Below are positions 1,465 through 60,445 of a stretch of 64,000 nucleotides of DNA, in pieces. Each line of letters starts with the position of its first letter. Positions within the stretch are counted from its first letter, which is position 1. The position numbers were made by a program, and so were the translations under genes. Location of the stretch: positions 27,092,281-27,156,280 of the forward strand of contig NC_092706.1 of assembly GCF_964275005.1 (NCBI RefSeq), in the 5' to 3' direction. Source of the stretch: Diadema setosum (Eukaryota; Echinodermata; Echinoidea; Diadematoida; Diadematidae). Under the pieces are notes generated by a model. The model worked only from the letters and a program-made list of their open reading frames with translations. It had not been told where the DNA came from and made no database searches.

Positions 1465-4166
1465 GAGATTAAAACCTAAAATGGCATTAAAACGCTTTAT
1501 CCTGGCGAGGAAAGCGCATGTTTTTGAAACAAGACACCAAACAGGTTAGTCATCGCATTCTTCATCAGCGACCAGGATGCGATGTGATGTTAGATTAAAA
1601 ATCCGTTTCTGAAGCAGAACATACACACAAGGGTATACGTCTGCTCCTGGTCGGACGGATTTCAAAACTAACCTGCTTGTGATGGAATGCGTCTAAACTG
1701 GTGGTAGTTGTTGCCACAGTGATGGTAACCGCGCAGTATGTATGTGCGCGTTTGGCGTAGCAACGACGCATCCATGGACTGGTTCCCTCCACGAAGAGCC
1801 AAAGATGAAAGGATGAAATCAGTTTAAAAAAACATGACAAACATGAATCCCTGATAGCTTTTCAATGGACTTACATTGCCAACGTCATGCTCCGATTTAC
1901 TATCACGAAGATAAACGGTTCAGAGACCCACCTCATCTTGTCTTTCACTGACGCAAACTCACACCTCCGGCCCCCATAGAGACATCCCAGCCAGTAGTTG
2001 TGCCTTGTCCGTGATGGAATACTGTATCAGACTTTCCTGATAGTCAACGGTCTTTCCCGTAGTCAATCAGACTTTTCCTGATAGTCAATCAGACTTTACC
2101 TGATAGTCAACCAGCCTTTCCTGGTAGTCACTGATCAATAACGAACAGAAGTGAATGAGATTAAAACCTAAAATGGCATTAAAACGCTTTATCCTGGCGA
2201 GGAAAGCGCATGTTTTTGAAACAAGACACCAAACAGGTTAGTCATCGCATTCTTCATCAGCGACCAGGATGCGATGTGATGTTAGATTAAAAATCCGTTT
2301 CTGAAGCAGAACATACACACAAGGGTATACGTCTGCTCCTGGTCGGACGGATTTCAAAACTAACCTGCTTGTGATGGAATGCGTCTAAACTGGTGGTAGT
2401 TGTTGCCACAGTGATGGTAACCGCGCAGTATGTATGTGCGCGTTTGGCGTAGCAACGACGCATCCATGGACTGGTTCCCTCCACGAAGAGCCAAAGATGA
2501 AAGGATGAAATCAGTTTAAAAAAAAACATGACAAACATGAATCCCTGATAGCTTTTCAATGGACTTACATTGCCAACGTCATGCTCCGATTTACTATCAC
2601 GAAGATAAACGGTTCAGAGACCCACCTCATCTTGTCTTTCACTGACGCAAACTCACACCTCCGGCCCCCATAGAGACATCCCAGCCAGTAGTTGTGCCTT
2701 GTCCGTGATGGAATACTGTATCAGACTTTCCTGATAGTCAACGGTCTTTCCCGTAGTCAATCAGACTTTTCCTGATAGTCAATCAGACTTTACCTGATAG
2801 TCAACCAGCCTTTCCTGGTAGTCACTGATCAATAACGAACAGAAGTGAATGAGATTAAAACCTAAAATGGCATTAAAACGCTTTATCCTGGCGAGGAAAG
2901 CGCATGTTTTTGAAACAAGACACCAAACAGGTTAGTCATCGCATTCTTCATCAGCGACCAGGATGCGATGTGATGTTAGATTAAAAATCCGTTTCTGAAG
3001 CAGAACATACACACAAGGGTATACGTCTGCTCCTGGTCGGACGGATTTCAAAACTAACCTGCTTGTGATGGAATGCGTCTAAACTGGTGGTAGTTGTTGC
3101 CACAGTGATGGTAACCGCGCAGTATGTATGTGCGCGTTTGGCGTAGCAACGACGCATCCATGGACTGGTTCCCTCCACGAAGAGCCAAAGATGAAAGGAT
3201 GAAATCAGTTTAAAAAAAAACATGACAAACATGAATCCCTGATAGCTTTTCAATGGACTTACATTGCCAACGTCATGCTCCGATTTACTATCACGAAGAT
3301 AAACGGTTCAGAGACCCACCTCATCTTGTCTTTCACTGACGCAAACTCACACCTCCGGCCCCCATAGAGACATCCCAGCCAGTAGTTGTGCCTTGTCCGT
3401 GATGGAATACTGTATCAGACTTTCCTGATAGTCAACGGTCTTTCCCGTAGTCAATCAGACTTTTCCTGATAGTCAATCAGACTTTACCTGATAGTCAACC
3501 AGCCTTTCCTGGTAGTCACTGATCAATAACGAACAGAAGTGAATGAGATTAAAACCTAAAATGGCATTAAAACGCTTTATCCTGGCGAGGAAAGCGCATG
3601 TTTTTGAAACAAGACACCAAACAGGTTAGTCATCGCATTCTTCATCAGCGACCAGGATGCGATGTGATGTTAGATTAAAAATCCGTTTCTGAAGCAGAAC
3701 ATACACACAAGGGTATACGTCTGCTCCTGGTCGGACGGATTTCAAAACTAACCTGCTTGTGATGGAATGCGTCTAAACTGGTGGTAGTTGTTGCCACAGT
3801 GATGGTAACCGCGCAGTATGTATGTGCGCGTTTGGCGTAGCAACGACGCATCCATGGACTGGTTCCCTCCACGAAGAGCCAAAGATGAAAGGATGAAATC
3901 AGTTTAAAAAACATGACAAACATGAATCCCTGATAGCTTTTCAATGGACTTACATTGCCAACGTCATGCTCCGATTTACTATCACGAAGATAAACGGTTC
4001 AGAGACCCACCTCATCTTGTCTTTCACTGACGCAAACTCACACCTCCGGCCCCCATAGAGACATCCCAGCCAGTAGTTGTGCCTTGTCCGTGATGGAATA
4101 CTGTATCAGACTTTCCTGATAGTCAACGGTCTTTCCCGTAGTCAATCAGACTTTTCCTGATAGTCA

Positions 4167-4168
<2 letters not shown>
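1465..4168 (+). repeat. Tandem array of a ~694-bp unit (three full copies and one partial)
   Basis: Units begin GAGATTAAAACC at 1465, 2157, 2851 and 3545 (steps of 692, 694 and 694 bp). The fourth stops early in a TA run. Copies are almost identical; the visible differences are in the length of one A-run. Each unit holds a hairpin (CGCTTT...AAAGCG) near its start, an inverted CATCGCAT/ATGCGATG pair, and, in full copies, about five ~22-bp subrepeats of the type CCTGATAGTCAA. The repeated minus-strand frame of about 90 codons simply recurs with the unit and resembles nothing I know. Confidence 0.95.
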
Positions 4169-8613: not shown

Positions 8614-9958
8614 TTATAAATGGGTGGTATAGTATTGGTGGAGATGAGGATTGGGCTTTAAACTTTTTGTGAGATACATGTACCAAGAAATCACTTTATG
8701 AAATATCACTGAGTATACCATTCTAAGAAGAATTCAAAGTTTATTTGATAAAAATCGATTTTGAAATAACAGAAATAAAAAAAACCAACAAAGTAAAACA
8801 AAGCAGTCGTCTCTTGCGTATGAGACCTGCTGCTATGCTACGTCTTGGAGGTGCCGCAGCCATTCCACAGTTGCTGGCCATGGGTTGGTCAGGTTAGTGT
8901 GTGATCCTAGAGGTGGTCCGAGCTTGGTACATTCCAGCAGGATGTGGTCCGCTGTCTGCTCAGGTGCACCACACAGACAAGCTGCTGAGGAACTGAGGCC
9001 CCAGCGATGCATGTTGGCCCCGAAGCGACCTACTCCAGTGCGGAGGCGGTTCAGGGTGACCCACTCTCTACGAGGGAGATCAGCTCCTGGTGGGATGGTT
9101 ATGCCAGGGGGGATGGTGAACTGTGTGGGCTTTGTCGTCTCTTGCCAATCATGTTGCCATTTCTCCATAAGGTTGAAGTTGGAGGTTCCTAGTGATTTTG
9201 CATGACGGCTGAAGGATCGACGAGAGCGTAGGCGTTGGTGGGTGAGGTTTTGGGCTCTGATGACGCGAGCATGTAGGAGGTGTGAGGTGTCTGGAAGAGC
9301 CTTCTTCACCAGAATGGCCATGTGGTGTTCTCTACGGAGTGCAGGTGGGGCAATTCCAGAGAGGACAGGGAGGTATTTCACTGGGGTTGGTCGTAGGCAG
9401 CCGTTGACTATTCTCATGGTGTCTTTGAAGTAGCATCCAGTTTGTTGACATGGGAGCTCCTACACCATGCTGGGGCAGCATATTCTGCAGCACTATAGAC
9501 GAGTGCGAGGGCACCTGTTCGGAGAGTGCTTGTGTGGGCTCCCCAGGAAGAACCAGCAAGGCGGCGTAGAAGGTTGTTCCTTGATGTCACTTTGCCACGT
9601 AGTGCCTCGATATGCTGTTTGAAGGTGAGTTGCCTTGTATCCAGTTTCACCCCGAGGTAAGTCGGGGTGGGGTTGTTCGGGAGTGTTGAGCCATCCAGCT
9701 TGACTGTAAGCTGTCTGTGAGCTTCCTTTGTGTTCAAGGTAAAGAGTGTCGCAGTGGTAATAAAATGTGGGTCCCAACTTTTAATAGGATTGCTCTATTT
9801 TGGATATCTCGGCCATTTAAAACCAATTTTCATCAGATAAACGTTGAATTCCTTTTGGAATTACATCCTCTTTCACATTTCATAAGAGGTTTCTCATTAT
9901 CTCACCAAAAAATGCTCGAAGCCCGAAGTTAGGTCTCAACCAAAACTATACAATCCCT
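8614..9958 (+). mobile_element. TTAA-ended MITE (family B), split by a LINE
   Basis: The left piece (about 8614-8794) and right piece (about 9768-9958) together match the single element at 53745-54101: left GAGATGAGGATT and CTTTTTGTGAGATAC, right GTGGGTCCCA...GGATATCTCGGCC...CTCATTATCTCA. The right end is CCCTTTAA, the mirror of the TTAAAGGG start of the other copy. The central join is occupied by a LINE fragment. Confidence 0.7.
8795..9767 (-). mobile_element. LINE 3' fragment (post-RT region with zinc-binding motif), inside a MITE
   Basis: Minus-strand frames at 9737-9414 and 9417-8833 encode the post-RT part of a non-LTR retrotransposon polyprotein: TYLGVKLD, LRRLAGSSWGA, EYAAPAWCRSSH, then GCLRPTPVKYLPVLSGIAPP, and a Cys/His block CLCGAPEQTADHILLEC near the end (RT zinc-binding type). 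One frameshift lies near 9415-9435; otherwise the reading is well preserved. The 5' end is truncated just before TTATLFTLNTKEAHRQL. It ends in a short 3' UTR inside the MITE. Confidence 0.8.
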
Positions 9959-21100: not shown

Positions 21101-21344
21101 ATGATGTGTGTAAAAAGATTTTGAAGGATACGTACGTGCTGTCGAACTCCTCGGCGCCCGCTGCGTCGGGCAAGAAGCCCGTGTAGGTGACGGTGACATA
21201 GTCGCCGGCATTGGCCTGTTTCGAACACATTTCTGGCTTGTAAAGGACATTTATATTAATGTCTTCTTGTCCTGTCTCTTCTTGGGAAGACAATTCGCCA
21301 AATGCTAATAACAGAAGAACACTGTATACCCACTGTCTCGTCAT
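14351..21344 (-). CDS. ER-lumen FKBP7/FKBP14-like peptidyl-prolyl isomerase with EF-hands; two alternative last exons
   Basis: Minus-strand gene joined from exons 21344-21136, 19549-19398, 18722-18589, then either 16301-16140 (218 residues) or 14506-14351 (216 residues). FKBP14-type proteins fold procollagen and other secretory clients in the ER. Order: signal peptide (MTRQWVYSVLLLLAFGELSS), divergent FKBP domain (about residues 28-140), EF-hand 1 (loop DSNDDKEITKDE, residues 154-165), EF-hand 2 and an ER-retrieval-like tail supplied by the last exon. All joins keep phase, and total length fits human FKBP14 (about 211). The FKBP core keeps KPEMC, VTVTYTGFL, EEFDST and MKGWHLAVEGMC, but the usual ALGYG loop is replaced by ELTANHALPN, so isomerase activity may be weak. 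FKBP7 and FKBP14 cannot be separated here. Confidence 0.88.
14563..14590. repeat. (TA)n microsatellite
   Basis: Short TA run about 60 bases upstream of last exon B, on the transcribed strand's acceptor side. Confidence 0.9.
14723..14772. repeat. (CTT)n/(CAT)n microsatellite
   Basis: Pure CTT triplets followed by a few CAT triplets, in the intron between the two alternative last exons. Confidence 0.9.
16140..16301 (-). CDS. FKBP-like gene, alternative last exon A (tail HEEL)
   Basis: Acceptor GGTTGGTGGTTTCAG with a good pyrimidine tract; 53 codons and TAG in phase 0. Encodes MRVFLSGQGMGD, an EF loop DFDRSNTISSRE (Asn in place of the usual Gly at position 6) and the tail GHARHEEL. Parallel in layout to exon B (same M...QGMG start, EF-hand, four-residue retrieval-like end) but clearly diverged in sequence. 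Confidence 0.85.
   Translation of the reverse strand: MRVFLSGQGMGDTLGQEDALNQAIQNIFDSKDFDRSNTISSREFFGHARHEEL
16408..16427. repeat. Poly-G run
   Basis: An uninterrupted run of about 18 G, in the intron upstream of last exon A. On the transcribed strand this is poly-C. Confidence 0.9.
17321..17402 (+). mobile_element. Tiny MITE, copy 2 of 3
   Basis: CCCGTTGAGGATGGACTGAT start, CTTCCTCAAC end and a slightly mutated central CCCAAGTATACTCGGG. Lies in FKBP-like intron 3. Confidence 0.75.
17709..17909. mobile_element. Short MITE with TTTCGCG-type interior
   Basis: Ends ATACTGTATTTTGCGG and the inverse of CCGCGTTTTACAGTAT. The interior is rich in AATTTTCGCGA-type motifs. About 201 bp, in FKBP-like intron 3. 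Confidence 0.65.
18097..18131. repeat. (GT)n microsatellite
   Basis: Uninterrupted GT dinucleotides in FKBP-like intron 3. Confidence 0.95.
18314..18498. mobile_element. pogo/Tigger-like MITE, short form
   Basis: TA-flanked; ends CAGTGCACTCCCATTATAAT and TTATAATGGGAGTCCACTG. It shares the ends and the GGTTATAATGAAATTTCGAT interior with the 530-bp element at 12738 but is only 185 bp. It lies 91 bases past the exon 3 donor. Confidence 0.75.
18589..18722 (-). CDS. FKBP-like gene, exon 3 (end of FKBP domain and EF-hand 1)
   Basis: Acceptor TTTCCGTAG, donor GTTTGT. Encodes TKAPPPDRDVGYRFELHQLN and the EF loop DSNDDKEITKDE, whose last Glu is the last codon. This leaves both alternative last exons to begin cleanly after EF-hand 1. 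Confidence 0.87.
19268..19291. repeat. Solo end of a pogo-like element
   Basis: CCCGATTAAGTGGAGACCACTG followed by TA resembles the outer end of the 13356-14192 family. No matching left end is convincing. Confidence 0.4.
19398..19549 (-). CDS. FKBP-like gene, exon 2 (centre of FKBP domain)
   Basis: Acceptor TTTTATTCGCAG, donor GTATGC. Encodes MNKGPVYFRLHDEAS and AMKGWHLAVEGMCLKEKREV, matching the FKBP core around the conserved Trp, then LIPAGELTANHALP. Confidence 0.87.
19984..20065 (+). mobile_element. Tiny MITE, copy 3 of 3
   Basis: ACCGAGGACGGACTGA start, TTCCTCAACGGG end, and the intact central palindrome CCCGAGTATACTCGGG. Lies in FKBP-like intron 1. Confidence 0.75.
20169..20230 (+). 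repeat. Dispersed repeat with CAGTCGCTGTA ... TCTGGTCGGG
   Basis: CAGCCCAGTCGCTGTATAG and CGTCTGGTCGGGCTAAC recur, slightly changed, at 61905-61965 (CAGCCCTGTCGCTGTACAC, CATCTGGTCGGGTTAG). Family unknown to me. Confidence 0.55.
21136..21344 (-). CDS. FKBP-like gene, exon 1 (signal peptide and start of FKBP domain)
   Basis: The ATG opens a frame with a classic signal peptide, then QEDININVLYKPEMC and VTVTYTGFLPDAAGAEEFDS. The donor GTACGT leaves two bases that join exon 2 in phase as Thr. Confidence 0.88.
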
Positions 21345-22082: not shown

Positions 22083-25000
22083 ATAATGTGGATTGAGGGA
22101 ATGCCCCTAACAAAAAAGTCCTGTGGTACTCCCTGTGGTACTAGTCGGTACCACACAATGTACCACACACTTGTAATGTTACCACAGGAACTGTGTGGTA
22201 CTGTACCACAGGCTTGTAGGGTACTCCCTGTAGTACTTGTCAGTACCACACAATGTACCACATAAATAAATGTTACCACAGGAACTGTGTGGTACTGTAT
22301 TACAGGCTCATGTGGTACTGGTTGGTACCACACAATGTACCACACAAATAAGTATGTTAACACAGGAACTGTGTGGTACTGTGTCACAGGCTCGTGTGGT
22401 ACTCTGGGATGTACCACAGGGCAGTACCACAGGACATTACCACAGGAAAGTTCCACAGGACAGTACCACAAGACAGTATACACACAAATTGTCCTGTGGT
22501 ATTTTGGGACGTATACCACACAACAGTACCACAGGACAGTACCACATGAATTGTCCTGTGGTATTTTAGGACGTACCACAGGAGAGTACAACAGGAAAGT
22601 ACCACAGGATAGTACCACAGGACAGTACCACACGACTTGTTCTGTGGTATTTTAGGACGTACCACAGGACAGTACCACAGGGCAGTTCCACAGGACAGTA
22701 CCACAGGACAGTACCACAGGAATTGTCCTGTGGTATTTTGGGACGTACCACAGGACAGTACCACAGGACAGTACCACAGGAATTGTCCTGTGGTATTTTG
22801 GGACGTACCACAGGACAGTACCACAGGGCAGTACCACAGGACAGTACAACAGGACAGTACCACAGGAAAGTACCACAGGACAGTACCACACGACTTGTCC
22901 TGTGGTATTTTGGGACGTACCACAGGGCAGTACCACAGGAAAGTACCACAGGATAGTACCACAGGACAGTACCACACGACTCGTCCTGTGGTATTTTGGG
23001 ACGTACCACAGGACAGTACCACAGGGCAGTACCACAGGAAAGTACCGCAGGGCAGTACCACAGGAAAGTACCACAGGACAGTACCACACGACTTGTCCTG
23101 TGGTATTTTGGGACATACCACAGGACAGTACCACAGGAATTGTCCTATGGTATTTAGGGACGTACCACAGGACAGTACCACAGGGCAGTACCACAGGACA
23201 ATACCACAGGGCAGTACCACTGGACAGTACCACAGGAAAGTACCACAGGATAGTACCACAGGACAGTTCCACACGACTTGTCCTGTGGTATTTTGGGACG
23301 TACCACAGGACAGTACCACAGGATAGTACCACACGACTTGTCCTGTGGTATTTCGGGACGTACCGCAGGACAGTACCACAGGGCAGTACCACAGGCAGTA
23401 CAACAGGACAATACCACAGGAAAGTACCACAGGATAGTACCACAGGACAGTACCACATGACTTGTCCTATGGTATTTTGGGACGTACCACAGGACAGTAC
23501 CACACGAATTGTCCTGTGGAATTTTGGGACGTACCACAGGACAGTACGACAGGAATTCCTGTGGTAATTTTTGATGTATACCACAGGAGTGTACCACAGG
23601 AACTATCCAAAATCCCACAGGAAAATCATAATATGGTGCTATTCCACACAGAAGTACCACACAGCAAATTAAATTCTAAGTACCACAGAAAAATGCTACA
23701 GGATATTCTTTTTTTTTTTCTTAACATTTTATACCAGAGGACTATCACATCAGGAGAATATCAAACAGCAGTACCACACAGGAACACCACACAGGAAAAT
23801 TGTAAGGCAGAATCAACTGAAATTTAAAACAAAAATACAAACAAAAAAGCACATATTAATATTCCTCAATTAATTGATAGATGAGTTATGCTATGAATTA
23901 TAACAGATTTGCCATTACTTATCCTGTCCTATACTCCTACAGTATTACCTATTTAGTGAAAGTGCTGATGTAAAGCATGAAAAATTTCATAAGGACTTCT
24001 GTGGTACTCCTGTGGTACTCCTGTGGTACTCCTGTGGTACAAATTTTTACATAGCTCATGAATATTCATAAAAAGCACTCTAGATTTTAGAAAATACATA
24101 TATGACTTAAAAAGTCAAAGTATTACTGATGGAACTTACTTTGAACTTTATGAAAGATTGTCTAATTATTTTATGTTATTCCCAATATCATAGATATTGT
24201 TATGAAAGTGTAATTTCATATCTTGATAATAAAGTATAATCGAGTTAGTAACCATGCCTTAATGCTTTACGGATAGACGGCCATATATATATGTACTGAT
24301 AGGGTCGATGGCTACCTAGGAATAGAATATGACTATATAGATCTATTATAGGACTAGATTGGCACTTGGCCATTAGACTCGTTTGAGGTTATATGTTAGG
24401 AGTAGGACAGGTTATTAAGTAGGGCCATGCATTGTCCTGAAATCCATCACTCACCTATCAGGAATATTCCTTGAAATGTGGCCAAAAGTCTCCCAGATTT
24501 TTTTTTTCGACCTATCCTGTGTGGTACTCTCCTGTGGTACCATGGAAATGCTGTGTGGTACTGCCCTGTGGTAATGCTGTGTGGTAATGATCGACCTGTG
24601 GTACTGTCCTGTGGTACTGTCCCAAAATACCACAGGACAGTTCCTGTGGTACTGTTCTGTGGTACTAGTCCTGTGGTACTGCCCTGTGGTATGTCCCAAA
24701 ATACCACAGGAATTCCTGTGGTACTGCCCTGTGGTACGTCCCAAAATACCACAGGAATTCCTGTGGTACTGTCCTGTGGTATGTCCCAAAATACCACAGG
24801 ACAATTCCTGTGGTACTGTCCTGTGGTACTGTCCTGTGGTACCGTCCTGTGGTACCGTCCTGTGGTAATTACCACAGGAGTACCACAGGACTTTTTCGTA
24901 AGGGGCAGCAATAAATATTAGTACAAAACACCAGCAAAATCTGAGGAAAATCGGACAATCTATACAAAAGTTGTGAATTTTAAAGTTTCGGTGCTGTCAA

Positions 25001-25436
25001 TGCTGGATCATGCAGAAGACTTCAACATTTTTGACAATATTTGTAGTCACGAGTCGAATGAACGACCACAGTAAAAAAAGCAGGATGATGAAAGCGCACT
25101 TGACTAAAATACCTCTTTCAGAAAGCAAGTGGAATGATATTACCCAAAATGTCGGTTAATATGTCAATGAAGATAATGTGTTCTTTTTGTCAGAAATTGA
25201 ACGTAGCTGGATTCTCTCAATATTTTCTTTACATTATCGTTTTTCCCGATATGACGTATACATGTGTAATATATATTATTTTCTCGTCCAATGATGGCTG
25301 CACTTTCAAATTTTAAAAACTTTAACAATATTTGACTTTTCAACGAAATTTCTGATTTTCGTGAAAGTTTGCTGATGTGTGCTATTGCTGCATTTACTCG
25401 ATGCACATTATATTTAGGTTTCTGTCATTCTTGAAT
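22083..25436 (+). mobile_element. TTAA-type MITE (family A), old copy split by a 2.8-kb foldback element
   Basis: Left remnant AATGTGGATTGAGGG (about 22086) and the right remnant from 24906 (CAGCAATAAATATTAGTAC, AAAATCGGACAATC, CTCTTTCAGAAAGCAAG, ending near 25436) line up in order with the intact family A element at 30411-30977. The outermost left end is unclear. Confidence 0.6.
22104..24905. mobile_element. 2.8-kb foldback element with minisatellite arms
   Basis: Ends CCCCTAACAAAAAAGTCCTG and, on the opposite strand, CCCCTTACGAAAAAGTCCTG (18 of 20 match). The left arm (to about 23600) is made of 13-bp units CAGTACCACAGGA, broken by about 13 spacers of the form CCTGTGGTATTTTGGGACG followed by TACCACAGG. 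The right arm (about 24520-24890) carries the same motifs inverted, with about four spacers. The first 300 bp of the left arm use a different unit of about 95 bp, three copies. The core (about 23600-24500) is mostly unique, with a small (CTGTGGTACTC)n cluster at 24000. Long open frames occur on both strands because the units rarely make stops; I do not think they are genes. Confidence 0.8.
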
Positions 25437-30410: not shown

Positions 30411-30977
30411 AGGGAAGGTAAACCCAAAAAGCAATGTGGATTGAGTGAAAGCAGCAACATTAGTAGAACACATCATAGCAGTGAAAGTTTGAGGAAAATC
30501 GGACAATCGATGCAAAAGTTATGAATTTTTAAAGTTTTGGTGTTGAAACCGCTGGATGAGGAGACTACTAGAGGATATGACGTATGAGTGGACAGCAATA
30601 CAAAGAAAATATAAAGGAAATTCAACAAAAATTCACTTTTCTAGAATTATGAAAGAGCAATGGACCAACCTCTTTCAGAAAGCATGCAGGGAGAATAATT
30701 GCTACCCCTAACATATGTCAATATCAAGTTGATGGAATTTGTAATTTTCATGAAAAATGGATTTTTGTAGAATTTTCTTTATATTTTCTTGGTATTGTTG
30801 TCCACTCATACGTTATAACCTCTAACAGTCTCCTCGTCCAGCGGTTCCAACACCAAAACTTTAAAAATTCATAACTTTTGCATCGATTGTCCGATTTTCT
30901 TCAAACTTTCACTGATGTGTTCTACTAATGTTGCTGCTTTCACTCAATCCACATTGCTCTTGGGGTTTATCTTCCCT
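30411..30977. mobile_element. TTAA-flanked foldback MITE (family A), intact
   Basis: TTAA at 30407-30410 and 30978-30981. Ends AGGGAAGGTAAACCC and the inverse GGGGTTTATCTTCCC. The arms (AGCAATGTGGATTGAGTG, AAAATCGGACAATCGATGC, AACCGCTGGATGAGGAGAC) are mirrored over roughly 280 bp each. No coding content. TTAA duplication suggests a piggyBac-type relation, but the tip sequence alone does not settle it. Confidence 0.8.
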
Positions 30978-31492: not shown

Positions 31493-32815
31493 CTATGCCG
31501 TACTAGGTTCAAATGAAGGCTGAACACTCGGCACAAGAGCATCTATCTTTAGGGAAAATGTCGGTTGTCCGACTGATCTCTTTCGCATCGGTTCACTCCT
31601 CATCCTTTTCAATGACTTTATGCTGAACAGGTGCTCGTCCGTCGGAATCAGCACGAAGTCGTTTAGGCGCTCGTCACTAAACTTTCCCGAGTCCACCCCA
31701 ACGTCAGTCGGCATCACGTTACCGTCTGATCGGCGAATGCCGATAAAGAAACGATGATTGGCGGAAGCAGTCGAAGGAAACGAATGAGCATCGGCCAATC
31801 TCTTCGGCAGTGTGTTGCAATCCCATTTGGTTGGGCAACACCAGTGACTACACGAAACTCTGAATCTGAGCCACAGATCCTTTGCCCTCCTTCGGTAGTT
31901 TTGGTTCATCACAAAGTAAACGAAGACGTTGAATGCGCTATTGGAAATTGTTAGCCAGTAAGTTAGAAATTCCACAAACGTTGGCAACGTTGTGTGGGAG
32001 ACGACTGTTATGAGAAGACTGGCAAGAATTGTGTACGGCAGCCAGGTAATATAGTATACACCGGCAATTATAACAAGCAGTTTAAACGCTTTGAAATTGC
32101 GTCGGAAATGTGACGGCAATCGTTGGGGCACCACGGCCACGGAAGAAGACCTGCCAAAGAGAACTTCTCGTCTGTGCGAACTTTTGAGGACTCGGATGTG
32201 AACACTAATAGATGTAAAGGTGATCACCACGAAACTTGGGACAAGGAGCAATGATAAGGCAACTATGAAATATGTCATGTTATCTTCATAGTCGGCGGAG
32301 CAAACCAACTTATCCACATCAAATTCATAATTTAATCCATACTGGGTAAACAATTGGGAGAAGAATGCAATACAGAAGAGCCATGTGATGACGATAATGA
32401 CCGCGATTTTGCGCTTTGTGACGTAACGTTGATAGCGGAAGGGATGTATGACGGCGATATATCGTTCGATGCTGAGGCTGATGATCGTGATGAGCGATAC
32501 TCTTGAACAGACCTCCGACATGTAGGCAATGATCAGACAGCAGGTATCGCCGAACGGCCAACGGTGTAAGATCGTGGGGACGATGGCACTTAGGGTGACG
32601 AGGCCCATTCCAAAGTCGGCTGTCGCGAGGGACAGGAGGAAATATCCCTGGCAAGTTTTCAGTGATTTCGAGCTCCCGATCACGACGAAGTTAACGATAT
32701 TTCCGATGATAGCCAGCGATGCTATGATTAATAGGAACCCAACCTCGGTGATACATGTGATCAAAGGTTTCGATTCATCGTCGCGCTTGCCATCGCGAAT
32801 GACAAAGGGATCCAT
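31493..32815 (-). CDS. Class A (rhodopsin-like) G-protein-coupled receptor, GPR21/GPR52-like
   Basis: A single open frame of 440 residues with seven hydrophobic segments. It would act at a cell membrane, coupling an unknown ligand to G proteins. TM1 has GNIVNFVV; TM2 LATADFGMG; Cys in FGDTCCL before TM3 can pair with the Cys in ECL2 (KLVCSADY). The TM3 end is ERY rather than DRY; TM6 has YYITWLPY without the usual CWxP; TM7 has LTISNSAFNVFVYFVMN, so NPxxY is changed to NVFVY. The WLPY...FLTYWLTISNS...N pattern recalls GPR21/GPR52, but orphan or amine-type receptors remain possible. The C-tail is long (about 120 residues) with CCP and many Ser. The start is the first ATG after an apparent 3' splice site 49 bases upstream, so the coding part is intronless but the 5' UTR is probably spliced. 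Confidence 0.85.
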   Translation of the reverse strand: MDPFVIRDGKRDDESKPLITCITEVGFLLIIASLAIIGNIVNFVVIGSSKSLKTCQGYFLLSLATADFGMGLVTLSAIVPTILHRWPFGDTCCLIIAYMSEVCSRVSLITIISLSIERYIAVIHPFRYQRYVTKRKIAVIIVITWLFCIAFFSQLFTQYGLNYEFDVDKLVCSADYEDNMTYFIVALSLLLVPSFVVITFTSISVHIRVLKSSHRREVLFGRSSSVAVVPQRLPSHFRRNFKAFKLLVIIAGVYYITWLPYTILASLLITVVSHTTLPTFVEFLTYWLTISNSAFNVFVYFVMNQNYRRRAKDLWLRFRVSCSHWCCPTKWDCNTLPKRLADAHSFPSTASANHRFFIGIRRSDGNVMPTDVGVDSGKFSDERLNDFVLIPTDEHLFSIKSLKRMRSEPMRKRSVGQPTFSLKIDALVPSVQPSFEPSTA

Positions 32816-32864
32816 GTTGTTAGGAAATCCCTTCCTCTTGTCCTCATCGGATGTTCAAAATATT
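32816..32864 (-). other. 5' UTR of the GPCR exon after a probable splice acceptor
   Basis: The minus strand reads TTTTTCCTCCAG then GAATATTTTG and 49 bases later the ATG. The pyrimidine-AG suggests an upstream non-coding exon, not located. Confidence 0.5.
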
Positions 32865-37255: not shown

Positions 37256-40171
37256 TTTTTTTTTTTTCAATTCAAAGGTTTTATTTTCACTTCTTTCAAC
37301 AGAATGTACAAAAAAAAAATATAGATTCGACATGCGTTTGAAGGAATGATACATAGAATAACATTTGTCAATAATCATTACAAAATTAGGCATTTTTCAA
37401 TAATCATTACAATAATCATAGCAATCATTACATTACAATCATTACAAAATAATCATTACAAAATTAGGCATTTTTCATACAGACATATTTATACATTCTG
37501 CGAAAAAAAGTGGAGGTACCCACTCAAAAAACTATTCTTGTACAAGGTGGGCACCTCACAGGAGGAATAAAAAGGTGAAAACTTAACTACAAGTGTGCGG
37601 GATGAAAAAAAGAAGTGGAAATAAAAGGGGAAAGAGAAGAAGCAGAAATACAAGTAAAGAGACGAGACAACTAAAAACAAAAAGCCTAGATCAATCGATA
37701 CATTCAAGATCAAACCAACAGAGACTATTAGCCATATTAGAAGTGTAGAGCGTTGAAAGCGACGAGAAAGTGATATTCTATACAATTGTATGGAATTGCT
37801 GATAGCAGAACATATTATCTGTTCTGTGAAGGTACGTGTAATAATGTACAAGTTTGCAGTAAGAAAAACAGGGGATGCGATGTGGAATTCCGCGAAAGAC
37901 GCGACCTAACAAGCCTATGAAAAATCAATAGCATCCTGGTGCTTACAAAACCTACTTACTGAAAAAGATAAACAAACAAAATTAATTTCTTTCTGTTACG
38001 TTATAAGACTTAAGGAGGAATGATTTCAATCTTTTTTTGAAAGAAAACAAAGAAGGAGTATTTTTTATGTCTGGACTAAGGGAGTTCCAGAATCTTGGGC
38101 CTGTATAAATAAATGTCTGCTGAGCTAACACAGTTCTAAGCAGGGGCAAGTGAAATTCATTAGACTGTCTTGTTGGGTAACTATGGAATGTCAGGTTACG
38201 AGGAAACATAGAATCAAATATAAACGGAAGACAGTTGTTATTATAGCTATACATAAATTGTCCTAAATGAAATAAAAACAAATCTTTAATTTTCAGAATC
38301 TTATTTTCAGAAAACATAGAAGCTGCATGAGAGCAAGGAGCGGCATTACAAATGATTCGAAGTTCCTTCTTTTGTAACAATAGAACCCTATCTAATAATG
38401 TTTGATGCGTGTTTCCCCATGCCAAAATTCCGTAATTTAAATAAGGTAATATCAAAGACGAATACAGTATAAATAATGAATGTTGGGGAAGAAACAATTT
38501 GAACCTGTTAATGACGCCTATATTACGTGAAATAATTTTACAAACATCTATTGTGATTCCAAGAAATTTTGTATATGAAACACTTTCTAAAACAGTATCA
38601 TCAAAATAAATATCCATATTCAAATTATCTAAAATGTTACTAAAAAACATATACTTTGTTTTATTGATGTTCAGGGACAGCTTATTAGCTCGTATCCAAT
38701 CTCGTAAATTTTGTAACTCCGAATTTACTGTATGCACAAGAATATTTGGATCTTCATGTGAATGAAACACATTTGAGTCATCGGCGAAAAGTATGAATGA
38801 TAACACTTGGGAGAAGCACATAAATCATTAATATAAACAATAAACAACAACGGCCCCAATATACTACCTTGTGGCACGCCACAAATTAGTTCTCTCATAT
38901 CAGAGTTATAATTGTTTATTGAAACATATTGTTTACGATCAGTTAGATAACTCCTGAACCACTCCAAGGCCTTCCCACGTATAGCATAGTGGGACAACTT
39001 ATAAAGCAATATATTATGATTAATAGTGTCGAAGGCCTTGGAGAAGTCCAGGAAGATACCGATCATATGAGAGTGATTATCTAAAGCATGTGCTACTTTA
39101 TCAATGAAATTCAAAAATGCATGAGAGGTGCTATGCTTTTCTCGAAAACCAAACTGGGAGTTTGTTAGAACACAATGCGTCTTCAAAAAATTCATTGTTC
39201 TTTCATATATAATTTTCTCTAAGATTTTTGATATACAAGATAATAAAGAAATAGGTCTATAATTAGTTATCACCATTCTTAAATATAGGAATAACTTTTG
39301 CTATTTTCATTTGTTCCGGAAACTGACCATTTGACATTGACAAATTGAAAATATACACCAAAGGATCCACAATAGAATATATTGCTCCTTTTAAAATCAT
39401 ATTGCTTATATCATCATAACCAGCACTTTTTTTATTTTTCAAACCAGAAACAATATCAATAACTTCATACCTAGTGGTAGGAGTAAAAAATATAGAATGT
39501 GTATTATACTGATTCAAAAAATCAGTAAAATGTTTATCAGTATTGGGAATTTCTTGAGCAATATCTTATCCAATAGTTGTAAAATATTTATTGAAAATAT
39601 TTACAATATCTTGAGAATTATCAATAACCTTGTCATCAAATCGAATTTTTGATATACCAGAGATTTCGGTTATATATTCATAGCATGTTTTAATACATTC
39701 CACGTACTTTTTATGTCATATCTATATCTCTGCAATTGCTTATGATAATATTTTTTCTTTTCTATACGTAATATTTTTGTTAGGGTATTTTTATACGAAG
39801 TGTATTTCAAACGTGCTTGCTCAGTTCTTTTCATCTTAAATGAGTAAAACAATTCATTTTTTCTATTAATAGATCGTAAAATGGAATTTGTAATCCAAGG
39901 AAGCCTTGGTGTTGTTTTACAATTCCCCCGTTTGTATTTTCTTTTGGGAATACATATATCTAAATGATTATTCAAAACATCAAAAAAAATTATTCAAAGA
40001 CAAATTAATGTCATCTGTATCAAACACACATTCCCAATTAGCATTATCTAAAGAAGCACAAAAAGAAAACAAATTTTCTTGAGTTACTCTACGCCTTTCC
40101 TGACAATGAAATGGATTAACATTACTATGATTATACTTAAACTGCGTCATAACAGGAAAATGATCAGTCAT
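37256..40171 (-). mobile_element. LINE, 2.9 kb, 5'-truncated, endonuclease C-end to 3' tail
   Basis: Minus-strand frames in order: endonuclease end MTDHFPVMTQF (40171-39980), a linker frame (39975-39670), RT with KKSAGYDDISN, NYRPISLLSCISKILEK, DFSKAFDTINHNILLYKLSH and CGVPQGSILGPLLF (39517-38725), then ILFADDSNVFH and the C-terminal domain with KTKYMFFSN, LPYLNYGILAWGN and GPRFWNSL (38821-37982). Breaks include frameshifts near 39265 and 38800 and a stop-containing gap near 39540-39660. The 3' UTR runs to an AATAAAACCTTTGAATTG tail near 37256. Jockey/CR1 superfamily. Confidence 0.85.
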
Positions 40172-51136: not shown

Positions 51137-54113
51137 GGGGGGGGGGGATGTTGGTTGGTGGATTACCAAAGAATTTGGGTGTTGAAAGAAGAGAACAGTA
51201 CAACATTAGACAAAGTCAAAATACATTACATACACGATGATAACATCACAGCATTATCAAAATTAATGCTTTATAGAGGACCTTCACAGAGCTTTTCCAC
51301 GTCATATACTAATCTCTTTCCCAAATCAGGGAGGTGTCCCTTCCACACCTCCGTGGCAAAGTCATACGATAGTCAGAAGACGAGCAATATACCGTTCTAA
51401 TACATCCATCTGCTTCAGGGCCGATGTCTTCATGAACTTGGTGAGGGCGTCGAAGAGCACAGTCTCCCGTCCGCCTGGCGTCTCCTCCTCTCCAGCCGCG
51501 TGTTCGTCATGACTCGCAGCTTTACACACAAGGAAGAGTGAGAGAAGATTTGAGTTTCCCTCTCTACAATTGTTCATAGTGACTCGTGGTTTCACATTTA
51601 AGATAGTCAGTCTTGAGTTTACCACTCTACAATATTGAAGGTGACTCGTGGCTTCACATTTAAGATAGTCAGACTTCAGTTTACCACTCCGTACAATTTT
51701 TCGTGGTGACACGTGGTTCATGTTGATAGTCAGACTTGAGTTTACCACTCTACAATTGTTCATGGTGACTCGTGGTTTCACATTCAAGATAGCCAGACCT
51801 GAGTTTACCACTCTACAATTGTTCATGGTGACTCGTGGTTTCGCATTTAAGATAGTCAGACTTGAGTTTACCACTCTACAATAATTGTTCATGGTGACTC
51901 GTGGTTTCACATTCAAGATAGTCATCAGACCTGAGTTTACCACTCTACTATTGTTCATGGTGACTCGTGGTTTCGCATTTAAGATAGTCAGACTTGAGTT
52001 TACCACTCTTCAATAATTGTTCATGGTGACTCGTGGTTTCACATTCAAGATAGTCATCAGACCTGAGTTTACCACTGTACAATTGTTCATGGTGATTCGT
52101 GGTTTCACATCCAAGATAGTCAGACCCGAGTTTACCACTCTACAATTGTTCATGGTAACTCGTGGTTTCGCATGTAAGATAGTCAGACTTGAGTTCACCA
52201 CTCTACAATTGTTCATGGTGACTCGTGATTTCACATTTAAGATAGTGAGACCTGAGTTTACCACTCTACAATTGTTCATGGTGACTCGTGGTTTCGCATT
52301 TAAGATAGTCAGACCTGAGTTTACCACTCTACAGTTGTTCATGGTGACTCGTGGTTTCGCATTTAAGATAACCAGACTTGAGTTTACCACTCCGCACAAT
52401 TTTTCGTGGTGACACGTGGTTCACATTGATAGTCAGTCTTGAGTTTACCACTCTACAATTGTTCATGGTGACCCGTGGTTTCACATCCAAGATAGTCAGA
52501 CCCGAGTTTACCACTCTACAATTGTTCATGGTAACTCGTGGTTTCGCATGTAAGATAGTCAGACTTGAGTTCACCACTCTACAATTGTTCATGGTGACTC
52601 GTGGTTTCACATTCAAGATAGTGAGACCTGAGTTTACCACTCTACAATTGTTCATGGTGACTCGTGGTTTCGCATTTAAGATAGTCAGACCTGAGTTTAC
52701 CACTCTACAATTGTTCATAGTGACTCGTGGTTTCACATTCAAGATAGTGAGACCTGAGTTTACCACTCTACAATTGTTCATGGTGACTCGTGGTTTCGCA
52801 TTTTAGATAGCCAGACTTGAGTTTACCACTCCGTACAATTTTTCGTGGTGACACGTGGTTCACATTGATAGTCAGACTTGAGTTTACCACTCTACAATTG
52901 TTCATGGTGACTCGTGGTTTCACATTCAAGATAATCAAACTTGGGTTTACCACTCTACAATTGTTCATGGTGACTCGTGGTTTCACATTCAAGATAGTCA
53001 GACTTGAGTTTACCACTCTGTACAATGTTTCGTAGTGACACGTGGTTCCACTTTCAGGATAGTCAGACTTGAGTTTGCCACTTACATTGTTCATGGTGAC
53101 TCCAGTCGTAGCTTCACAATAAAGATAGTCAGACTTGAGTTAACTACTCTACGATTGTTGCAAATCGTATCTTCATATCCGAGAAAGCAAGAGAGTAGTA
53201 AATGATTGAGGTTACTGTACTCTAGGATTATCCACGGCAACTCGTTTCTTCACATCCGACAAAGTGAAAGTGTCAGACGGCCTGAGTTCACGATTGTTCA
53301 TTGAAAAATCGTATCTTCATAATTCATAGGACCTATGCGAAAAAGTGAGAGGTTGTACAGGACTGAGGTTACTACTCTTGGATTGTCCACGTCAACTCGA
53401 TCGTTTCTTCACATCCGAGAACGTGAGAGAGCCAGACCCGATTTCACTACTCTACGATTGTTCATTGTGAATCGTATCTTCACATCCGAGAAAGTGGGAG
53501 GTACTATAGTATATGATTGAGGTTACTCTAGGATTGTCCACGGCAACTAATTTCTTCACATCTGAGAAAGCGAGAGAGTCATACCAGAGTTCACTACTCT
53601 GCGACTGTCCATTGCAGTTCGTATCATACATCCGAGAAAATAAAAGAGCCAGAGTATAGTTCAGTACTCTACAGTTGCTCATGTTAAAAACTCTTATATT
53701 CACGTCAGAAAAAAAAAAAAACCAAAACAAATGAGAGAGTCGGATTAAAGGGATGGTTTGGTATTAGTTGAGATGAGGATTCAGCATGTAACTTTTTGCG
53801 AAATACTTTAAAACCACTTCATGAAATGTTAAAGGGCATACATTATTCTAAGGGGAATTCAAAATTTATTTGATGAAAATCGGTTTTGAAATGGCTGAGA
53901 TATCCAAAACATAAAGTAAAACCAACCTATCCTAACAACAAGTGGGTCCCACCTTTTCTTAGGATCGCTTTTTGTGTGGATATCTCAGTCATTTCTAAAC
54001 AAATTTCCAAAAAATAAACGGTGAATTAATCTTAGAATTATATGCTTTTTCATATTTCGTAACAGGCTCTCATTATCTCAAAAAAAGTTGAAAACCAGAA
54101 GCGGCAGCACAGG

Positions 54114-58846: not shown

Positions 58847-60445
58847 AGGCGGAAAATATATTTCCGCCTATACATTTCATTACATTCCAAATCTTTTCAG
58901 TCACTGATGATAGTAAAAGGTTTGGACAAAATAACCAGAAGTATACCATAGGTATCTTGGTGTAAATCTACAGTTAGCTTCAACAGTCGCGTGTACTGAG
59001 TAATTCAACAATGTGATTTTTTTTTTCCAAAAGGAAAAATTTCGGCACTTCATAGTTTAGTTCATTGAACTAGGGTATGACGGCACATGTATTTCATCAT
59101 TCATTATCAACAATAACGCATCTAGTGTGTTGATCTCAAAACAGTCATTATGTACACTGGCCTTACATAATTGATTTATGAGGCAGGGCCAGTTTAGCGA
59201 GCAAACAAAATTAGTTCTTGAAAACATTACTTTGTATTTTTTTCCCCTTTAGAATAATTCGGCAAATCAGCATTGGTATCTCTGATAAAATCATCACAAT
59301 TTCATTTTGTGTGAATGTCACCTTCTCTAGCACTCATTATCATGGCGACATCACTCATGATACTGATGGCGTGTAGAATGATATAATAAATTATCACTAT
59401 AATCACATCATCACCAATGTAGTGTATCGTGGTCATGATGGTCTTGGAAAAACCACTCCGTGTGTAAAACATAAGCACTTTGTAAGAAATTAGTGCGTAT
59501 AATTCTTGCGAGCATAGCATAACGATTGTAATTATATTAAATTTGAATTTGAATTCAATTGAATATATTTTTCATATTTCACGATATTATAATGTAATAA
59601 ACATGACTAACACAACAGCATATCTAACCAGACATTCTTTGAAGTGACACACGTGACAAAACCTGACTTTATTTAGTTTGTGATTTCTACACTGGTTCTC
59701 TGACATTCAATTTCCGTACAAACATTTTAGAACTATTTTGAAGCACTTATCTGGGTTTTTGTTTCAAATGGTAAATGTTGCCGTTTAAACCCAGTTGACA
59801 GTGCTTATCAAACGATGATGATATGAAGAGTTTGTTCGCAAAAACCGATAAGTCCATTTTTGCCAAATGGAGATATTTGCGATTAAAGGTCAAGAAAAAT
59901 AAAGAGAATAATAAGAAAATTTTTGCTTCTTTTGACCATAACTTCAAAAATGTACCTTTATACGTAGTGACCAATATATCATTTAGAAGGTATTATTTTG
60001 TACTTTATGACAGGGACCGTACTTCAAAATCTTCAAAAATGGACTTATCGGTTTTTGCGAACAAACTCTTCATATGTATACACCTGTCGGTTGTATAAAA
60101 GTTTTTCTGTTATAAAAAAAAAAAAAAAAATCTTTGATTGTAAACACTGCCATCATACAGTCCAAACTTATGGTGCCAAAAGGACCTTATCATCATCCAA
60201 GATTGCAAGAAATAAAGTCATCGTGATAACCAAAACATTATACTCACTACATTTGGAGGGGTGGTACTCTTGACTCGACGCTGTGCTATGTCTTCTCTTT
60301 GTGGTCTAGTTCTCAACTTCCCCGAACTTTTGGCCTTGGGCATTGCGCCATTCGCAGTCGACTTCTCCTTGCCCGTCGAGTTCTTAATCGTTTCCATGTC
60401 ACTGCGATGAAGGTATATCGCCCCTCTGCGATTCGTTCCAGACAT
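43717..60445 (-). CDS. EF-hand protein of unknown family (nine exons, 490 residues)
   Basis: Nine minus-strand exons join with all phases compatible into 490 residues. N-terminus: basic, Ser-rich, with five RRxS motifs (residues about 75-130). Centre: a calmodulin-like EF-hand pair, loops DSNGGGTIDADE (161-172) and DKDGSGEIDFEE (197-208). Both carry the needed acidic and Glu-12 ligands, so calcium binding is likely. Then an acidic stretch, a helical segment (VLFDALTKFMKTSALKQMDV), a Lys-rich patch (SRKKKKQKK), and a C-terminal region with KIRIRVHF, LGWVKCRVKSIADRLPK and SYWKTLKCHRM. No signal peptide or membrane segment. I do not recognise the family; a calcium sensor regulated by basophilic kinases is an inference only. 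Introns are long and repeat-filled. Confidence 0.78.
44434..44580 (-). CDS. EF-hand gene, exon 8
   Basis: Acceptor AATCGATTTGCAG, donor GTGAGT. 49 codons: VKETDKKREKAPTVPRLGWV, then KCRVKSIADRLPK and YTMDDLMKIRKG. Confidence 0.78.
44985..45208 (-). CDS. EF-hand gene, exon 7
   Basis: Acceptor CATGCACAG, donor GTGGGT. Encodes YDYKSPYAEPLRIMLTPQR, a Lys-rich patch and KIRIRVHFREEDETKKPEEV; local base use is GC-rich compared with the flanking introns. Confidence 0.78.
45701..47508 (+). mobile_element. Helentron-like element, inner copy
   Basis: A 1.8-kb copy with its own 5' hairpin (45702-45733) and 3' hairpin (47476-47497) ending CTAG at 47505-47508, inserted in the CTT-rich 5' region of the outer copy. 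By eye it matches the outer copy at roughly four bases in five, with the same block order, so the family had diverged before nesting. Confidence 0.7.
45903..45921. promoter_or_regulatory. Two perfect CRE octamers in the inner Helentron
   Basis: TGACGTCA at 45903-45910 and 45914-45921. Further perfect octamers in this copy lie at 46288-46295 and 46540-46547. CREB/ATF binding is known for this octamer; use here is inferred. Confidence 0.5.
47648..47666. promoter_or_regulatory. Two perfect CRE octamers in the outer Helentron
   Basis: TGACGTCA at 47648-47655 and 47659-47666, with two more at 48042-48049 and 48294-48301: the same four positions as in the inner copy. Confidence 0.5.
50041..50724. 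other. EF-hand gene intron 6, unique part
   Basis: No feature recognised between the Helentron end and exon 6. Confidence 0.5.
50725..50858 (-). CDS. EF-hand gene, exon 6
   Basis: Acceptor CTCTGCGTTGAACAG, donor GTAAGA. Encodes YFNTKYKRAQAPHVVMHYAA, GARLIGLTEKQLVQHLDRLQ and ASNE; likely helical. Confidence 0.78.
50928..51145. repeat. Composite simple repeats (GT, poly-G, poly-C, TA, poly-T/G)
   Basis: (GT)n at about 50930-50952 runs into poly-G. Poly-C lies near 50993, (TA)n at 51091-51119, then T-run and G-run to 51147. All are in EF-hand intron 5. Confidence 0.95.
51393..51519 (-). CDS. EF-hand gene, exon 5
   Basis: Acceptor CTTCCTTGTGTGTAAAG, donor GTATAT. Encodes AASHDEHAAGEEETPGGRE, then TVLFDALTKFMKTSALKQ and MDVLE. 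Its first bases resemble the adjacent minisatellite unit. Confidence 0.78.
51546..53165 (-). repeat. 63-bp minisatellite, about 24 copies
   Basis: Unit contains GAGTTTACCACTCTACAATT, GTTCATGGTGACTCGTGG and TTTCACATTCAAGATAGTCA. Copies differ by a few bases; a variant with CCGTACAATTTTTCGTGGTG recurs near 51686, 52392 and 52829, and a block of six units is repeated with an offset of about 376 bp, so there is higher-order structure. The unit is 21 codons and lacks stops, so long frames stay open on both strands. It lies in EF-hand intron 4 and starts about 27 bases upstream of exon 5. Confidence 0.92.
53166..53740 (-). repeat. Diverged relatives of the 63-bp minisatellite
   Basis: Motifs ACTACTCTACGATTGTTCAT and CGTATCTTCACATCCGAGAA recur with irregular spacing and AGAGAG insertions; older edge of the same array. 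Confidence 0.7.
53745..54101 (+). mobile_element. TTAA-type MITE (family B), right end missing
   Basis: Starts TTAAAGGGATGGTTTGG. The arms AAAATCGGTTTTGAAATGGC and GGATATCTCAGTCATTTC mirror each other around a centre near 53920. The right terminal piece seen in the copy at 8614-9958 is absent here. Confidence 0.65.
54114..54162. repeat. (GT)n then (GA)n microsatellite
   Basis: GT run followed by AGAGAG, in EF-hand intron 4 just after the truncated MITE. Confidence 0.95.
54929..54974. repeat. Poly-A and (TA)n run
   Basis: About 15 A then TA repeats and a short T-run. Confidence 0.95.
55560..55901 (+). mobile_element. LINE 3' tail
   Basis: Ends TTTTACGAAATGAATAAAG followed by a (TGAT)n tail to 55901, typical of a LINE 3' end; no coding part seen. 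The 5' limit is approximate. Confidence 0.5.
56470..56541 (-). CDS. EF-hand gene, exon 4 (second half of EF-hand 2)
   Basis: Acceptor CCTTTACCAG, donor GTAAGT. Encodes SGEIDFEEFLQLMTSTEKF then LETF; the intron before it splits the EF-hand loop after DKDG. Confidence 0.82.
57160..57686 (+). mobile_element. LINE 3' tail abutting exon 3
   Basis: Ends AAAAAATAAATTTTGAATTT with a TTGAA-type tail at 57686, only about 25 bases beyond the exon 3 boundary. No RT motif is left. Confidence 0.45.
57712..57855 (-). CDS. EF-hand gene, exon 3 (EF-hand 1 and start of EF-hand 2)
   Basis: Acceptor TATACTGACAG, donor GTGAGC. Encodes FQEVFDLFDSNGGGTIDADE, LQSALSSVDIHLPSQDIRDV and LETIDKD; GC-rich coding base use. 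Confidence 0.85.
58431..58686 (-). CDS. EF-hand gene, exon 2 (RRxS-rich region)
   Basis: Acceptor TCTTTCTTCTGTGCAG, donor GTCAGT. Contains MRRSSTV, PRRGSIL, ARRGSML, ARRGSNF and NRRSSRM, then a Pro/Lys run KRKPKPPEPEPALTKEQVE. Confidence 0.82.
58741..58846. repeat. (AAC)n(TAC)n microsatellite
   Basis: About 14 AAC units then about 20 TAC units. On the transcribed strand this is (GTA)n(GTT)n, ending about 55 bases before the exon 2 acceptor. Confidence 0.95.
59821..60075. mobile_element. Foldback MITE with ~40-bp near-perfect ends
   Basis: Left GAAGAGTTTGTTCGCAAAAA and CCGATAAGTCCATTTTTG are mirrored exactly on the right (CAAAAATGGACTTATCGG, TTTTTGCGAACAAACTCTTC). ATAT at both edges may be a target duplication. 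255 bp, in EF-hand intron 1. Confidence 0.75.
60248..60445 (-). CDS. EF-hand gene, exon 1 (start codon)
   Basis: The ATG opens MSGTNRRGAIYLHRSDMETI and a basic stretch ending STTPPNV; donor GTGAGT in phase 0. It is the first in-frame ATG upstream of exon 2, but an upstream non-coding exon cannot be excluded. Confidence 0.75.

Follow-up and report, generated by a model that had tools for sequence, protein, structure and literature searches.

A 2.8-kb sequence in the genome of the sea urchin Diadema setosum has inverted ends, long arms built of tandem repeats and a middle with no gene. What kind of transposable element is this and which protein moves it? The copy lies in a window of 64,000 bp (G000:C24:27092281-27156280), the whole stretch of DNA that was analysed, and the genome searched comprises 912.7 Mb in 102 contigs. 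A sequence-only reading of the window had described a mobile foldback of a build matching no named family, with the source of the transposase left unknown.

Structure of the element

The window copy is 2800 bp in length (22105-24904). It starts with CCCTAACAAAAAAGTCC, finishes with GGACTTTTTCGTAAGGG and is flanked by GC on either side (22103..22104 and 24905..24906). The ends had been described as near-perfect inverted repeats, and indeed 19-bp terminal repeats are found at 22105..22123 (CCCTAACAAAAAAGTCCTG, + strand) and at 24886..24904 (- strand, on which it reads CCCTTACGAAAAAGTCCTG). The difference between the left and right ends is kept in most of the listed copies. The element is located where it had been placed (22104..24905), except that bases 22104 and 24905 belong to the GC duplication.

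The left outer domain (22105..22404, + strand) comprises approximately three copies of an 84-bp unit made of GTGTGGTAC / GTACCACA motifs and is shared with the left tip of a 35-kb element described below (L065). The left arm proper (22405..23604, + strand) is a minisatellite of 13-bp units, GTACCACAGGACA, among which inverted units, TTGTCCTGTGGTATTTTGGGAC, are scattered. The core (23605..24516, + strand) is AT-rich and non-coding (912 bp, 33% G+C), and is followed by the right arm (24517..24904, - strand), which consists chiefly of inverted 13-bp units. The arms flanking the core are unequal, approximately 1500 bp on the left and 388 bp on the right. With up to one mismatch allowed, the left arm contains 70 copies of TACCACAGG on the + strand and 19 inverted ones, and the right arm contains 6 on the + strand and 17 inverted, a total of 112 motifs in 1.9 kb of arms. 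Because both orientations were counted in both arms, inverted units are present inside each arm. The earlier description, of a left array and a right arm that is the same array inverted, is thus mainly correct, with the qualification that each arm also has units in the opposite orientation and that the arms differ in length.

No exact copy of TACCACAGG was found on either strand in the remainder of the window. In keeping with the earlier remark that no coding core is evident, the copy is non-coding; a convincing reading frame was sought in the core and none was found. The window has no matches to Rfam or to the phage collection with which it was compared. With long inverted tandem-repeat arms and a non-coding middle, the window copy has the structure of a foldback element.

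The sequences surrounding the element are of several kinds. A likely first exon of an FKBP14-like gene is located at 21105-21344 (- strand; best solved-structure match FKBP14, E 0.022; no Pfam matches); the element is upstream of this gene, approximately 760 bp from its ATG. An uninterrupted frame of 453 codons (31493-32854, - strand) encodes a rhodopsin-type receptor (7tm_1, 1.9e-38). Reverse-transcriptase frames at 37982-39300 (- strand) and a weak zf-RVT match below the cut-off at 8833-9459 (- strand) are both LINE-type by look. A 63-bp array of approximately 25 copies is present at 51546-53159, and four short arrays sharing one 21-22-bp unit are present at 2026-4168, the first three of them 694 bp apart.

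The family in the genome

The sequence-only reading staked its case on other loci having the same ends, and these are numerous. A DNA search identified long copies on many contigs (best 40 of 434 candidates scored). Exact matches to the 19-bp end number 294 across the genome (140 forward and 154 reverse), whereas the reversed-pattern control gave 0. The family ends are CCCTAAC / CCCTTAC (short form CCCTWACRAAAAAGTCC), and the element takes the form CCCT...AGGG. Matches to a wider clan of ends, 18-mers with the first 15 bases CCCTWACRAAAAAGT and T excluded at positions 17-18, numbered seven. Because this equals the seven of the reversed control (3+4), a sister family with the CCCTWACRAAAAAGT bases was not found.

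Among the 294 ends, 249 were listed with two flanking bases (for flanks of A and T only, 100 of 145). Adjacent convergent ends of opposite type no more than 40 kb apart were taken as a pair, which gave 99 pairs (198 ends) and left 51 ends unpaired. The 2-bp flanks are identical in 83 of the 99 pairs, whereas 10,000 shuffles gave 8.1 such pairs on average and never more than 19. Each of the 16 possible dinucleotides is represented, and the 16 pairs with unequal flanks are retained in the count. Equal flanks were also seen in 22 of 26 copies read at both ends. Pair lengths range from 1.9 to 35 kb, with 75 of the 99 between 2.7 and 3.5 kb and 14 longer than 4 kb. A 20-mer from the core was found in 71 of the 90 pairs on C1-C19 and is missing in 19, several of which are of ordinary size.

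Some loci depart from this simple picture. On C1-C19, 28 of 99 hits of the core 20-mer lie outside every listed pair, the end being mutated, lost or unlisted. Three of the 16 unequal pairs (on C2, C68 and C72) have flanks that are reverse complements (AA/TT, CC/GG and AG/CT); these could be inversions between copies and are few enough for chance. Two copies on C4 (37818076-37821860 and 37823163-37826935) lie approximately 5.1 kb apart and share both orientation and 2-bp flanks, which points to a tandem duplication that took in the element.

Target sites

The window copy interrupts an older MITE, the left tip of which is at 22085..22102 (+ strand) and the remainder at 24907..25409 (+ strand; the right limit is approximate and comes from the match of the right arm to 30855-30955). 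When joined, the flanks of the copy align over the junction, at 78% and 80%, to both arms of a MITE at 30433-30955, which is uninterrupted and has a single GC at the insertion site. The split of an older MITE had been recognised from the window; the break is near its left tip. GC, which had been allowed only as a perhaps, is a true 2-bp target site duplication, in line with the equal flanks of 83 of the 99 pairs.

Empty sites were sought using the joined flanks of other copies as queries, with the best 40 of 2130 candidates scored. For copy L014, 35 places are continuous through the junction at 99-100% with the length unchanged. Alignment of empty sites, proposed with the original description, thus succeeded for both the window copy and L014. 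L007 gave five uninterrupted places, all of which exceed its joined flanks by 3 bases, and for L017 and the queried part of L012 there was no junction-spanning match among the best 40 of the 2130 candidates. The target preference is at most a weak A at -4 and T at +4 in 22 empty sites. The sequence into which L014 inserted is a dispersed repeat with many near-identical copies; that of L007 is a hairpin-like repeat, copies of which lie close to the beginning of C5 and of C10.

It could be argued that no transposase acts on these sequences and that palindromic repeats have spread by recombination or replication slippage, as the arm lengths do differ by repeat units. The fixed ends, 2-bp duplications and empty sites contradict this explanation, the least credible of those weighed here. 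The same three observations uphold the original claim that the element moved as one unit.

A candidate autonomous partner

Where would the transposase come from? The Transposase_21 domain (PF02992) has three matches in the genome. One of them is in an open frame of 913 codons inside a 35.1-kb end pair (C10:38386908-38422034; 35,127 bp) with CA on both flanks; the other two are in none of the 99 listed pairs. The sequence basis for this pair is 1801 of the 35,127 bp and 299 of the 913 codons. The 901 bp of the frame contain 299 stop-free codons and score 33.6 bits against PF02992 (cut-off 28.6). Used as a query, the 299-codon piece gave 28 matches in 13 clusters, of which only the C10 place is within any of the 99 pairs. 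Besides C10, the clusters include degraded fragments with 68-88% identity at C6:15.88 Mb; the others are 29-57% identical. Compared by sequence, the piece has no transposase match among solved structures and no matches in NCBIfam. The search for a transposase between the same ends thus yielded a candidate where the source had been called unknown, in a pair that has been read in part.

The repeats of the C10 pair resemble those of the ordinary copies. Its left 292 bp are the same outer domain, diverged by a mean of 12.3% (10.7-13.4%) from 27 tips that are 2.0% apart among themselves (maximum 6%). The 13-bp array is present at its right end and persists 685-984 bp inward, farther than the right arms of 26 ordinary copies (388-544 bp). 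Direct and inverted subterminal repeats are also present in the pieces that were read (L065-L067). The core 20-mer is absent. With at most two mismatches, the tip signature of this lineage occurs in three places, one in the C10 pair and two on C46.

Four of the 14 pairs longer than 4 kb were examined (three whole and C10 in part), and L008 and L021 were examined in the left portion only. The three whole pairs were rejected as autonomous copies. The core of the 23-kb pair on C3 is split by a 20.2-kb insert (C3:6099739-6119899) that has its own inverted repeat of 38-39 bp and an AAGT duplication. Approximately 4.7 kb is inserted near the left tip of L062 (C6, 7.8 kb), and an arm of L063 (C15, 7.65 kb) contains a LINE reverse transcriptase. 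In the window, a repeat of approximately 250 bp (59824-60072) matches both ends of the C3 insert (115 and 136 bp, 92-95%), which is either a giant MITE parent or a MITE split by other repeats.

Such inserts illustrate how common nesting is, and the C10 pair could likewise be an old foldback copy in which an unrelated CACTA-type element is nested, the true transposase being elsewhere or lost. More than 33 kb of the pair, including the gap between the arms and the gene, lies outside the part read. However, the left tip is an outgroup to all 27 tips with which it was compared and the right arm exceeds that of any of the 26 copies. The chance that the gene fell within the pair is also small. By chance, the three PF02992 places would be expected to give 0.0001 hits in the C10 pair (about 1 in 9,000) and 0.0013 in the 99 pairs (1 in 800), and the 13 clusters 0.0005 (1 in 2,000) and 0.0055 (about 1 in 180). 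Furthermore, the CCC ends and the 2-bp duplication independently indicate this type of transposase (PMC1636069). The missing core 20-mer argues in the same direction, weakly, because 19 of 90 pairs, several ordinary in size, also have none. Taken together, we consider nesting unlikely.

Because of the divergent tip, the longer right array and, more weakly, the missing core 20-mer, we take the C10 pair to be a sister element that is probably autonomous. Its protein, or a close relative, is the candidate to drive the 2.8-kb copies in trans. Since the left tip of the 35-kb element is 11-13% diverged, a closer source may have driven the latest burst.

Classification

In animals, TRC elements are characterised by CCC ends, a direct repeat of 2 bp and Transposase_21 (PMC1636069, PMC4298943), and have been reported in Schistosoma, Tribolium and Aedes (PMC1636069). 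Spongebob of Hydra is a CACTA relative with CCC ends and a 2-bp duplication (PMC4298943). The family described here has inverted repeats that begin with CCC, the 2-bp duplication seen in pairs, copies and empty sites, and subterminal repeats in direct and inverted orientation at each end; Transposase_21 is in the partly read 35.1-kb pair, the window copy being non-coding. Because CCC ends, 2-bp duplications and Transposase_21 mark the animal CACTA relatives (TRC/EnSpm), the window copy is quite probably a non-autonomous cut-and-paste DNA transposon of that group (TRC; EnSpm, CMC clade). The build thus fits published animal elements, contrary to the view that it had no named counterpart (PMC1636069, PMC4298943). 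Some observations count against the assignment. The ends are CCC rather than the classical CAC, although animal TRC elements show CCC, and flanks are unequal in 16 of the 99 pairs. Neither the CACTA/CACTG ends nor the 3-bp duplication of classical plant CACTA elements is seen, nor is the TA duplication of Tc1/mariner, TA being found in 6 of the 83 matched pairs.

Other groups of transposons were weighed. Short inverted repeats with a 2-bp duplication are also found in ISL2EU/PHIS-type transposons, and YqaJ, the ISL2EU companion gene, has 10 matches in the genome. However, the published duplication of that group is AT within AATT (PMC4482050), whereas all 16 dinucleotides are used here, and none of the 10 YqaJ places is within any of the 99 pairs. 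Membership in ISL2EU (PHIS) was rejected on these grounds and is very improbable.

The target duplication of the foldback Galileo is 7 bp, against 2 bp here. In Tetris it is 8-10 bp (PMC4079207), again unlike the 2 bp of the 83 pairs and the empty sites. FB, Tetris and Galileo have the same build, with tandem-repeat inverted arms and a variable non-coding middle (PMC4079207, PMC3688188), and would suggest a Mutator- or P-type foldback. Given the size of the duplication, Mutator-type membership was rejected and a Mutator or P origin is highly improbable.

Recent movement and array change

The cores of 26 copies, picked by similarity to the window copy, have a mean pairwise divergence of 2.5% (range 0-4.3%); because of this selection, diversity across the whole family may be greater. 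Between the three copies L009, L012 and L025 (on C4, C16 and C6), pairwise comparison shows 2, 1 and 3 substitutions in approximately 2927 aligned bp, and therefore movement is recent. The arms of these copies differ by indels of 13 and 211 bp, plus a few of 1-4 bp. Because this has occurred with so few substitutions, the arms evolve in large steps and faster than the bases. There is no sign of homogenisation between the arms of a copy, since right-arm 30-mers are found in the left arms of other copies (17.4%) as often as in their own (17.5%).

Within the unit, TACCACA (positions 2-8) shows a constancy of at least 97% across 1459 units from left arms and at least 99% across 397 units from right arms. 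At position 9 the figure is 95-98%, and at position 10 it is 97% on the left and 83% on the right. Position 13 is constant at 99.6% on the left and 93% on the right. Positions 1, 11 and 12 are the most variable (position 12, 68% on the left). Judged from this pattern of constancy, TACCACA plus its neighbours may be the core bound by a protein. The extent of this putative core is uncertain because position 13 is at 99.6% on the left and position 10 at only 83% on the right, and the conservation may come in part from homogenisation of the array and from the filter used to pick units.

The proposed mechanism and its relatives

In CACTA elements, subterminal motifs flank both ends in both orientations with unequal sides, and in En/Spm they are bound by TNPA (PMC2613891). 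In Galileo, tandem repeats within the long arms contain binding sites for the THAP domain of the transposase (PMC3688188). By analogy, the arms probably derive from CACTA subterminal repeats by overgrowth and would be arrays of protein-binding sites. The tandem and inverted sites, of which TACCACA is the most constant part, would gather transposition proteins at both ends, and a CACTA-type transposase supplied in trans would cut and paste the 2.8-kb copies with a 2-bp stagger. The arms, being a minisatellite, would gain or lose whole units. The element looks like a foldback because its two ends bear units mainly in opposite orientation.

Foldbacks with tandem-repeat arms include TU of sea urchins. 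FB, Tetris and Galileo share the tandem-repeat inverted arms and non-coding middle (PMC3688188, PMC4079207); unlike the present family, the foldbacks are mostly assigned to Mutator, with exceptions (PMC4079207), and Galileo is assigned to P. The TRC elements (SmTRC1; Spongebob_HMa / EnSpm-4N1_HM) share the CCC ends, the 2-bp duplication and Transposase_21 in the full element, and the published drawing of SmTRC1 includes a region of tandem repeats (PMC1636069, PMC4298943). They differ in that the end sequence departs after CCC(T) and that foldback minisatellite arms go unmentioned in the available text of the same two sources. The candidate autonomous form is also longer, 35 kb compared with 5.2 kb (Tribolium) and 9.2 kb (Aedes) for TRC.

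Plant CACTA elements (En/Spm, Tgmt*) likewise have short direct and inverted motifs beside both ends, unequal between left and right; these can form stem-loops, and defective elements are mobilised in trans (PMC2613891). They differ in the CACTA ends and 3-bp duplication, and the longer side of Tgmt* has 24 repeats in 732 bp (PMC2613891) as opposed to 112 TACCACAGG in 1.9 kb here. Among the literature matches listed, which come from open sources outside Repbase, Dfam and subscription papers, none describes a foldback of the CACTA/TRC type whose arms are a minisatellite. By its transposon features the family fits TRC/EnSpm and by its structure it is grouped with the foldbacks.

Implications

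The candidate transposase of this foldback family belongs to neither the Mutator nor the P lineage, which suggests that CACTA subterminal repeats gave rise to the foldback plan anew. Because one genome holds 99 pairs, near-identical recent copies and a candidate autonomous partner, the role of the repeat arms is directly testable. Near-identical copies that differ by whole units make this transposon a carrier of a minisatellite. A bolder and tentative proposal, which we hold to be possible but doubtful, is that a CACTA lineage independently evolved the foldback plan by expanding predicted binding sites into a minisatellite of approximately 100 units that changes by units faster than by point mutation, each insertion scattering a dense array of sites for a DNA-binding protein of the element or the host, in the window approximately 760 bp upstream of the FKBP14-like gene. 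TACCACAGG contains TGTGGT, the Runx-type core. If the proposal is true, the array could raise the mobility of the element and rewire nearby genes.
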